Origin: Campylobacteraceae bacterium
GTDB taxonomy: Bacteria > Campylobacterota > Campylobacteria > Campylobacterales > Sulfurovaceae
Length of the DNA: 33,338 nt
Reading direction: 5' to 3'
Assembly (NCBI GenBank): GCA_026985655.1
Contig: JALSQB010000150.1
Coordinates: 1-33,338 of the forward strand
Shown: in pieces, positions 20,897 to 32,260 of the stretch
Position numbering within the stretch: position 1 is the first letter of the stretch
Layout: every line of letters begins with the position of its first letter
Notes under the pieces: model-generated
Seen by the model: only the letters and a program-made list of their open reading frames with translations
What the model was told of the DNA's origin: nothing
The model's database searches: none
Program-made: the position numbers and the translations under genes

Positions 20897-20906
20897 TTAT
20901 AGCTAG

Positions 20907-20932
20907 GAGTAGAGTGCAATCTCTACTCTTTT
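20907..20932 (+). terminator. Intrinsic terminator after nusG
   Basis: GAGTAGAG (20907-20914), loop TGCAAT, CTCTACTC (20921-20928), then TTTT. A perfect 8-bp stem ten bases after the nusG stop; it separates secE-nusG from the L11 operon. Confidence 0.75.
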
Positions 20933-20936
20933 ATAT

Positions 20937-20980
20937 ATTTAAATTAAAAATTTAAATAATAAAAAAATGTTTTTATTATT
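20937..20980 (+). repeat. Two overlapping AT-only palindromes before rplK
   Basis: ATTTAAATT-AAA-AATTTAAAT (20937-20957) and AATAATAAAAA-AATG-TTTTTATTATT (20955-20980) are both perfect inverted repeats that share three bases. Only one of the two hairpins can form fully at a time. They lie between the nusG terminator and rplK, where the rplK promoter must also be. Confidence 0.55.
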
Positions 20981-21032
20981 CAAGTTTTTATTTAATACTA
21001 AATAAACGACTATTTAATCTAAGGAGACAATG

Positions 21033-21458
21033 ATGGCAAAAAAAGTAAGCGAACGCTTCAAAATGATGATTCCTGCTGGATCAGCAAATCCATCACCACC
21101 AGTAGGACCAGCACTTGGTCAACGTGGTGTTAATATTATGGAATTTTGTAAAGCATTTAATGAAAAAACAAAAGATAAAATGGGATTTAAAATTCCTGTT
21201 GTTGTAACAGTATATGTTGATAAATCTTTTACTTTTGAAACAAAACAACCACCTGCATCAGAGCTTATTATGAAAGCTGCGAACATTAAAAAAGGGACAG
21301 ATAATCCTATTATTAATAAAGTGGGAACACTTACATCAGCTCAAATTGATGAGATTGTTGAAAAGAAAATCGCTGATTTAAACACAACTGACAAAGAGAT
21401 GGCAGCAAAAATTATTGCTGGTACTTGTCGTTCAATGGGTGTTGAAATCGCTGGATAA
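21033..21458 (+). CDS. rplK: 50S ribosomal protein L11
   Basis: L11 forms the GTPase-associated stalk base with L10 and is needed for RelA activation. Two ATG codons are adjacent; the second gives six bases from AAGGAG instead of three and yields the standard 141 residues ([20 protein letters not shown]). The proline-rich [20 protein letters not shown] and the C-terminal rRNA-binding domain ending [11 protein letters not shown] are intact. It is followed by an 86-base gap with small inverted repeats and then rplA. Confidence 0.97.
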
Positions 21459-21544
21459 TTCGAGTTTATCGAATGAGCTAATGGTCTATTGATGACCCAT
21501 AATACCACTGAAAACGTGGGAGATTTATATCGCTGGAGAAGTAA

Positions 21545-22255
21545 ATGGCAAAGAAAGTAAATAAAAAGAGAGCATCTCTTTTAGAAAAAATAGAAGTAGA
21601 AAAGAAATACGGTGTTGATGAAGCAACAGCACTTCTTAATGAATTAAAATCAGCTAAGTTTGATGAGACAGTTGAGCTTGCATTAAATTTGAATCTTGAT
21701 CCAAGACATGCAGACCAAATGCTTAGAGGTTCAGTTGTTCTTCCAAATGGTACAGGAAAAACAGTAAGAGTTGCAGTATTTGCAAAAGATGATAAGGCTG
21801 ATGAAGCTAAAGCAGCAGGTGCTGATTTGGTTGGTTCTGATGATTTAATTGAAGCAATTCAAGCAGGTAACATTGATTTTGATACCGTAATCGCAACACC
21901 TAATATGATGGGAACATTAGGTAAAGTAGCAAGAGTTTTAGGACCAAAAGGTTTAATGCCTAACCCTAAAACAGGAACAGTTACTATGGATATTACTAAA
22001 GCAGTTACTGAAGCTAAAGGTGGAAAAGTAAACTTTAGAACAGACAAAAAAGGTAACATTCACGCTGGAATTGGAAAGGTATCTTTTGGTGCTGATAAAA
22101 TTAAAGAGAATTTAGAGACTTTTATGCAGACAATTAACAAAGTTAAACCAGCATCTGCAAAAGGTAGATATATCTTAAATGGTGCTATTTCATTAACAAT
22201 GAGTCCATCAGTAACTTTAGAGACTGCTGAACTTTTAGAGATGAAAGCCAAATAA
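21545..22255 (+). CDS. rplA: 50S ribosomal protein L1
   Basis: L1 builds the mobile stalk at the E site and in many bacteria represses the L11 operon by binding its mRNA. The 236-residue protein shows [36 protein letters not shown], the [14 protein letters not shown] signature, and the C-terminal strand [13 protein letters not shown]. The gap between rplK and rplA could hold the regulatory site, but none is recognised. Confidence 0.97.
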
Positions 22256-22295
22256 GAACGCTAATAGATAAACTTTTTGAGAGTCTAAAGCTTAG

Positions 22296-22339
22296 GACAA
22301 AAAAGGGGTCAGGTTTAAACCTGACCCCTTTTTGTCTTT
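22296..22339. repeat. Perfect 40-bp GC-rich palindrome, terminator-like
   Basis: GACAAAAAGGGGTCAGGTTT (22296-22315) is followed with no spacer by its exact reverse complement (22316-22335), then TTTT. The A-run and T-run inside the arms would make a strong intrinsic terminator in either direction. It lies about 40 bases after rplA and before the L10-type leader. The core GGGGTCAGG...CCTGACCCC resembles, from memory, palindromes near REP-associated transposases, but no transposase is here. Confidence 0.85.
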
Positions 22340-22369
22340 TGCTTTATGCTTAGCATATGAATCTAGATT

Positions 22370-22440
22370 GAAGATAAAAGGGGCGAAAGCTTAATATAGA
22401 ACCTTGAAAGAGGTTTGTTGGTGAAAACTACCCTTTTAGA
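22370..22440 (+). promoter_or_regulatory. L10-type leader (rplJL autoregulatory RNA element)
   Basis: TAAAAGGG (22374-22381) pairs perfectly with CCCTTTTA (22430-22437). Inside are a GC-GAAA-GC hairpin, an AACCT/AGGTT hairpin (22399-22403 / 22410-22414) and an asymmetric single-stranded part. This position and layout match the L10 leader, where the L10-L12 complex binds and represses rplJ. The assignment is structural; no covariance search was run. Confidence 0.6.
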
Positions 22441-22457
22441 GATCGAAAGGAGAACAA

Positions 22458-22943
22458 ATGACTAGAACTGAAAAAGAAGCCATTGTAAATGAACTGACTT
22501 CTGCTTTTACAGATCAAGGTGCTGTAATCGTATGTGATTACAAAGGTATGACTGTTGAAGCATTAGAAGGTGTTAGAAACATGGCACGTGAGAATGATGT
22601 ACAAGTTCGTGTTGTAAAAAACACACTGGCAGGAATTGCACTTAAAAATGCAAACTGTGAAGAGATGGAACTTGTAGATACCAATATCTTTATTTGGGGT
22701 GAAGACCAAATTGCTACTTGTAAAGTAGCTGATAAATCGGCTGAAGCAAATAAAGATAATTTCTCAATCAAATCTGGGGTAATCGAATCTAAAGTTGCAG
22801 ACATTGCTACTATTAATGCAATGGCTAAACTTCCAGGAAGAGATGAACTTCTTGGTATGTTACTTAATACTTGGAATGCTCCAGTACAGAACTTTACTAT
22901 TGGTATGAGTGCACTTGCAACTAAATTAGAAGCAGAAGCATAG
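22458..22943 (+). CDS. rplJ: 50S ribosomal protein L10
   Basis: L10 anchors the L7/L12 dimers to the ribosome. The 161-residue protein has the rRNA-binding N-terminal domain (MTRTEKEAIVNELTSAF, YKGMTVEALEGVR, VVKNTLAGIAL) and a C-terminal helix (FTIGMSALATKLEAEA) that binds L12 dimers. GAAAGGAGAAC provides the ribosome site. It stands behind the L10-type leader and just ahead of rplL. Confidence 0.97.
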   Translation: MTRTEKEAIVNELTSAFTDQGAVIVCDYKGMTVEALEGVRNMARENDVQVRVVKNTLAGIALKNANCEEMELVDTNIFIWGEDQIATCKVADKSAEANKDNFSIKSGVIESKVADIATINAMAKLPGRDELLGMLLNTWNAPVQNFTIGMSALATKLEAEA

Positions 22944-23001
22944 ATTGAATGTGATGATATTAAAATCATTAAAAAATATATAGAATTTTAAGGAATTAAA
23001 A

Positions 23002-23373
23002 ATGGCAACAACTAAAGAAGACGTTTTAGAATTTATCTCAAACATGTCAGTACTTGAGCTTTCTGAGCTTGTAAAAGAATTTGAAGAACACTTTGGTGTA
23101 TCTGCACAAGCTACAGTAGTAGCTGGTGGTGGTGATGCAGGTGCTGGTGCAGCAGAAGAGAAAACAGAATTTGATGTAGTACTTACTGATGCAGGTGCTA
23201 AAAAGATCAATGCTATTAAAGTGGTAAGAGCTGTTACAGGTCTTGGACTTAAAGAAGCAAAAGCTGCTGTTGAAGAAGTACCAACAACACTTAAAGAAGC
23301 TTGTTCTAAAGAAGAAGCTGAAGAGATTAAAAAACAAGTTGAAGAAGCTGGTGCTTCTTGTGAACTTAAATAA
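23002..23373 (+). CDS. rplL: 50S ribosomal protein L7/L12
   Basis: The flexible stalk protein that recruits translation factors. The 123-residue protein has the N-terminal dimerisation domain ([20 protein letters not shown]), an alanine/glycine hinge ([12 protein letters not shown]) and the C-terminal factor-binding domain ([32 protein letters not shown]). TTAAGGAAT gives strong initiation, fitting the need for several copies per ribosome. Its stop codon is part of the first of four hairpins in the gap to rpoB. Confidence 0.98.
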
Positions 23374-23421
23374 GTCATCTTTGACTTATCTGTTTCAAAT
23401 GGATAAACTCCATTTGAAACA
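23370..23421 (+). other. Two perfect hairpins directly after rplL
   Basis: ATAAGTCA-TCTT-TGACTTAT (23370-23389) includes the rplL stop. One base later TGTTTCAAATGGA-TAAAC-TCCATTTGAAACA (23391-23421) forms a 13-bp stem. Neither is followed by a T-run. In E. coli the same gap holds an attenuator and an RNase III site that reduce rpoB expression relative to rplL; a similar role is inferred. Confidence 0.65.
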
Positions 23422-23444
23422 TTAAAAATATTTAGACCCTTTCT

Positions 23445-23502
23445 TCTACTGCATTAGTAACAGTAGATTATATTTTCTTACATAGCATTAGTAACTATGT
23501 AA
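23445..23502 (+). promoter_or_regulatory. Tandem hairpins with identical nine-base loops upstream of rpoB
   Basis: TCTACTG-CATTAGTAA-CAGTAGA (23445-23467) and TTACATAG-CATTAGTAA-CTATGTAA (23478-23502). The loops and the closing G-C pair are the same; the stems differ except for their ability to pair. TACTAAT, complementary to seven loop bases, lies at 23560-23566 beside the rpoB ribosome site. No known RNA family is recognised. A regulatory role is inferred. Confidence 0.6.
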
Positions 23503-23570
23503 ATATCAATAATTTTTTTAATTTTTGTATATCTATACATTAACCACTTAACATCAACATACTAATATAA

Positions 23571-32260
<8,690 letters not shown>

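Follow-up and report, generated by a model that had tools for sequence, protein, structure and literature searches.

The GC-rich palindrome found between rplA and rplJ is the apical part of a conserved hairpin (hairpin A) and not a free-standing repeat. Probably, it represents a minimal head-to-head pair of TIRYT ends (GGGGTCAGGT, TTAA, ACCTGACCCC) located at the apex of this hairpin, before the structured leader of rplJ. The core matches the motif of such ends and occupies the tip of the hairpin, the foot of the hairpin displays compensatory pairing, and the tip has been turned over recurrently among close relatives. TIRYTs are Y1 transposases flanked by TIRs, many of which share the motif GGGGWSAS; the name was given by Di Nocera et al., 2013 (PMC3733652). 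The window, i.e., the whole stretch of 33,338 nucleotides analyzed, is contig C150 of an assembly of 1.67 Mb in 245 contigs, which is 80% complete.

The palindrome, hairpin A and the rplJ leader

The features of the window considered here are the following:
21545–22255, + strand: rplA, 50S ribosomal protein L1 (TIGR01169, 328 bits)
22287–22295, + strand: conserved 5′ foot of hairpin A, AAAGCTTAG (25-genome alignment)
22296–22336, + strand: stem of the insert in hairpin A, 20 bp interrupted by a bulged A at 22299 (sequence and fold)
22300–22333, no strand: exact zero-spacer palindrome with 17-nt arms
22305–22328, no strand: probable double TIRYT end, GGGGTCAGGT-TTAA-ACCTGACCCC (single copy in its own genome; transposon ends of the same genus)
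22337–22351, + strand: conserved 3′ foot of hairpin A, rich in U, TTTTGCTTTATGCTT (25-genome alignment; at least five T in eight positions in 22 of 25)
22376–22437, + strand: core of the rplJ leader, a helix AAAAGGG/CCCTTTT enclosing two hairpins (fold of the window and relatives)
22420–22429, + strand: site B, the second leader hairpin tip, short in the window (palindromes of this kind in seven relatives)
22458–22943, + strand: rplJ, 50S ribosomal protein L10 (NF000955, 129 bits)

The original prediction described an exact palindrome of 40 bp with 20-nt arms. The exactness and the lack of a spacer are borne out, while the length has to be corrected: the exact arms, AAAAAGGGGTCAGGTTT and AAACCTGACCCCTTTTT, are 17 nt each and cover 34 bp. 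The sequence 22296–22336 reads GAC AAAAAA GGGGTCAGGTTT/AAACCTGACCCC TTTTT GTC, so that six A precede GGGG (22299–22304) and five T follow CCCC (22329–22333). Because of this difference of one base, the outer GAC and GTC can pair only across the bulged A at 22299, which gives a stem of 20 bp over 41 nt. As anticipated, a palindrome of this length lies far beyond chance expectation; indeed, when the whole window was shuffled 30 times with its dinucleotides preserved, the longest zero-loop arm was 10, and the second-longest in the 33-kb window itself is 11. Its placement between rplA and rplJ is likewise correct, the spacer extending from 22256 to 22457 and both bordering genes being confirmed by NCBIfam.

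The rplA–rplJ spacer was compared across 29 genomes of the same genus. Hairpin A is found in 25 of them, between rplA and the rplJ leader, and is absent from the other four in the spacer alignment. In the 25-genome consensus the 5′ foot is AAAG[CT]TTAG and the 3′ foot ends in CTTTATGCT, the stem-loop between the two feet varying from 16 to 122 nt. Pairing is kept in 121 of 125 cells over the five pairs at the base of the insert stem, with compensatory changes at four positions, a result reached by 0 of 2000 shuffles; this covariation can be considered strong but not absolute, since the shuffles do not fully remove the kinship among the genomes. The predicted fold energy of hairpin A is about −29 kcal/mol in the window vs. 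about −6 to −11 kcal/mol in relatives without the insert.

As to the leader, the covariation observed in its core helix was reached by 53 of 2000 shuffles. The basal pairs of site B are paired in 109 of 116 cases and covary, and 0 of 2000 shuffles reach this value. Palindromes at site B occur in seven genomes, two of which (G028 and G030) have visibly degenerate versions, and one genome (G032) carries the same core at both site A, the tip of hairpin A, and site B. In G009, one GGGGTCAG palindrome is nested inside another. Rfam matches obtained at permissive E-values (HrrF, CsrC, miRNAs) fall far below the gathering scores and those displayed align on the A-rich hairpin; they were therefore dismissed as due to chance or composition. 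Farther downstream in the window, the rplL–rpoB gap contains an inverted repeat of 13 bp with a loop of 5 nt (23391–23421).

Tip turnover and distribution of the core and ends

The tips found at site A were sorted into classes of our own. Some tips are short plain loops. The GGGGTCAGGTTTAAACCTGACCCC core, which constitutes the tip in the window, is also present inside longer stems of G006 and G032 and, slightly changed, of G026 and G033, and variants centred on CTTAAG form another class. Full-length double ends, GGGGTCAGGTGAACGTAATCATG, lie head to head at the tip of G010, G020, and G021, while G003 carries the GGGGTCAGGTGATAACG form of the double end. A different repeat, GAGGGCAGAG/CTCTGCCCC, occupies the tip in G024 and G029. 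Three different tips are found among close relatives that form a single rplA clade (G003, G006, G010, G021, and G026). On the rplA, rplJ, and rpoB trees, the tip type requires at least 16–19 changes and the presence or absence of the TIR at least 5–6. Overall, a TIR-type tip is missing at site A in about half of the genomes, and several have short plain tips only. For G020 and G030 the trees and identities of rplA and rplJ conflict and the neighbours differ, suggesting recombination near the spacer.

Concerning the mobility that had been suggested, the palindrome is single copy in the 80%-complete assembly of its own genome, yet the tip that it occupies is recurrently replaced in relatives. 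The sequence GGGGTCAGG is found in only three places of this genome, namely this palindrome, contig C7, and contig C47, where it appears to lie within coding sequence. No match to the exact 34-bp palindrome was found in GTDB genomes; the 24-bp core is present in three MAGs titled Campylobacteraceae, one Elusimicrobia MAG, and one Deltaproteobacteria MAG. A search of 34 genomes of the genus for the short core (up to three mismatches) returned 13 occurrences in eight genomes, 12 of which are located at sites A and B of the rplA–rplJ spacer and the remaining one in the rpmG–tRNA-Trp gap of G012. Two more palindromes of this kind were found outside the genus among 175 genomes of the family, beside tRNA-Met and before tRNA-Sec; all these counts are probably lower bounds, given the incompleteness of several genomes and the tendency of palindromes to interrupt MAG assemblies. 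The G012 copy (L046:1483–1542) consists of GGGGTCAGACTTAAGTCTGACCCC within a perfect stem of 18 bp.

By contrast, the GGGGTCAGGTKA ends, which occur 33 times in the 34 genomes vs. 2 for the reversed control, are spread over numerous loci; these are often genes for transposases, whole or fragmentary. At the leader sites the outer flanks of the palindromes are mostly self-complementary, without interruption, for 5–19 bp, whereas flank self-complementarity is 0–2 bp in the dispersed copies examined. Flank symmetry thus tends to set the two groups apart, symmetric flanks being present also in two cases outside the leader, the GGGGACAG palindrome of G025 (10 bp) and a palindrome of G140 (7 bp). The former (L151:1491–1542) is a double end with symmetric AACAATAAAA/TTTTATTGTT flanks; its neighbours are a transposase-like ORF, which is truncated, and a pair resembling mazE/mazF.

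Relation to Y1 transposases

The core had been likened to REP-type palindromes mobilised by Y1 transposases. The kinship with Y1-transposase repeats is supported by the GGGGTCAGGTKA ends, which flank intact TIRYT genes of the same genus, and by the turnover of the tip. The attribution to canonical REPs, on the other hand, does not hold: the palindrome has no GTAG or GTGG foot (its flanks are AAAAA and TTTTT), it does not exist in many dispersed copies, and the family is that of the TIRYTs. Indeed, GGGGTCAG fits GGGGWSAS and is present at both ends of the core (22305–22312 and 22321–22328). Most TIRYTs belong to subclass 2.1 of TnpAY1, which is characterized by a C-terminal HTH and is prevalent in epsilon-, beta-, and deltaproteobacteria (Quentin et al., 2018; PMC6006769). 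The TIRYT genes of the same genus are bounded by inverted GGGGTCAGGTGAACG/GGGGTCAGGTGAACGYAATC ends and encode proteins of 255–261 aa, with Y1_Tnp above the cut-off and a C-terminal similarity to HTH models below it. Since the length of these genes agrees with that of TIRYTs, as do their Y1_Tnp domain and the similarity of their C-terminus to HTH, we have filed the palindrome as TIRYT-derived. In one relative, G010, TIRYT copies are nested in tandem (L105:1501–2860): the first transposase gene is truncated, a complete one comes directly after it, and both have a GGGGTCAGGTGAACG start of their own.

Only TIRYT fragments, and no intact gene, were found in the 80%-complete assembly of the palindrome's own genome; the palindrome may nonetheless derive from a copy that was lost or is missing. 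An N-terminal fragment of 54 aa lies downstream of AGGGGTCAAACGTTG on contig C5, and a weak match of 55 aa is present on C100. On C7, the C-terminal 45 aa of an ORF match a TIRYT C-terminus at 57% (25/44), with the GGGGTCAGG copy 3′ of the ORF, and this fragment is closed by the same form of end, GGGGTCAGGTGATAACG, that forms the site A tip of G003. At this locus (L001:157–330), an RHS-like ORF apparently runs in frame, at its end, into the TIRYT C-terminal HTH segment, and the transposon end follows. The sole Y1 gene detected with the Pfam model in this genome, on C117, is a canonical RAYT (NF047646, 148 bits); GTAGGGGGCGATTGC/GCACC repeats are found on both sides of this intact gene (L005:1275–1763).

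Origin, persistence and alternative readings

The GGGGTCAGGTTTAAACCTGACCCC core is read as a minimal double end because of the TIRYT ends of the relatives and of the head-to-head ends placed at the same tip in three of them. The element that entered the hairpin tip would have been a TIRYT or a double end of the non-autonomous kind. Its middle would then have disappeared by deletion or by fold-back copying centred on TTTAAA or CTTAAG, and it is the self-complementarity of these centres that suggests the two routes. About 10 bp (GGGGTCAGGT) are common to the core and the intact ends, hence we infer, rather than observe, that the short core derives from transposon ends. The insert may persist because a hairpin made longer at its apex would not prevent the folding of its foot or of the rplJ leader downstream. 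It would probably make hairpin A much more stable and thereby strengthen whatever this hairpin already does between rplKA and rplJL, the candidates being partial attenuation and RNase III-type processing. More tentatively, Y1 transposases of the TIRYT type might preferentially insert into hairpin tips, or have their ends regrown there by fold-back repair, in which case the hairpin apices of a ribosomal leader would offer a recurrent landing pad where ends nest without breaking the RNA fold. One point against the TIRYT reading is that an element able to disperse would not be expected to stay within a single operon.

The palindrome had also been regarded as a possible strong terminator. The window hairpin followed by its U-tract matches the terminator consensus (GC-rich stem, then U-tract) and, taken together with its T5 tract, exceeds the other terminator-like sites in 20900–23600 in its numbers of pairs and of G-C pairs. 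The U-rich tail of hairpin A is present in 22 of 25 genomes, with or without an inserted tip, and the plain hairpin of G018, which lacks the insert, also scores as terminator-like; therefore, any terminator or processing role would belong to hairpin A and not to the insert. The terminator scan gives no + strand match in G006, which carries an insert, and a scan limited to sigma-70 promoters found none between the palindrome and rplJ. The ranking of the window hairpin, the U-rich tail, and the terminator-like score of an uninserted relative all speak for an intrinsic terminator or attenuator that evolved locally between rplKA and rplJL and resembles a transposon end only incidentally. Nevertheless, we consider this origin unlikely, given that it accounts neither for the match to TIRYT ends, nor for the full-length transposon ends that three relatives carry at this tip, nor for the like palindromes at site B and in the rpmG–tRNA-Trp gap, and that G006 has no + strand terminator and four genomes have no hairpin A.

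Selection by the host could instead have placed long GC-rich stems at both leader tips, where they might act, e.g., as RNase III sites between the rplKA and rplJL transcripts, with transposon ends as a convenient raw material. Such recruitment would be in keeping with the near-exclusive occurrence of the palindromes in the rplA–rplJ spacer, with their long, sometimes nested stems containing few G-U pairs, and with the position of other palindromes next to tRNA genes, whose transcripts are also processed. Yet the long stem is dispensable, as indicated by the genomes that have no TIR-type tip, by the several short plain tips, and by the four genomes devoid of hairpin A, and we regard this scenario as rather improbable. 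Hardly credible is a canonical REP unit, tagged with GTAG, that would owe its mobility to the genome's own RAYT. The TnpA_REP gene whose presence had been envisaged does exist there as one intact RAYT, but it is flanked by its own REP, GTAGGGGGCGATTGC, which is unrelated to the palindrome, and not by GGGGTCAG; the palindrome, for its part, lacks the GTAG foot and occurs only once. A pair of TIRYT ends at the apex of hairpin A is the reading that we prefer.

TIRYTs are widespread and little studied, and a genus in which their ends are found repeatedly at two defined RNA hairpin tips displays an unusual pattern. The nested and minimal forms of the ends provide a natural series of intermediates for how such palindromes form, and the system bears on the way in which an essential ribosomal leader absorbs mobile DNA.

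Among known systems, the L10 leader (RF00557) likewise is a structured leader lying directly before rplJ, with a helix enclosing two hairpins; however, the Rfam covariance model finds no match in the window or in five relatives. Mitochondrial repetitive hairpin-forming elements may sit inside RNA genes and stay in the transcripts (PMC2800124), but they are organellar and of unrelated sequence, and the part of that source considered here describes no link to Y1 transposases. The REP/REPIN/RAYT system (NF047646) also ties short palindromes to Y1 transposases acting on single-stranded DNA, and a REP "double foot" was proposed to arise by central deletion (PMC6006769); in contrast, the palindrome described here lacks the GTAG foot, is not high copy, and is related to a different transposase subclass. 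The closest likeness is with the TIRs of TIRYTs/TIRtrons (PMC3733652, PMC6006769), which share the GGGGWSAS motif and the inverted ends around Y1/HUH transposases of about 255–260 aa with a C-terminal HTH, and for which dimeric repeats have been reported; here, unlike in those systems, the presumed ends are collapsed to a perfect palindrome of 24 bp, single copy, and are nearly confined to the RNA hairpin tips of one ribosomal spacer.
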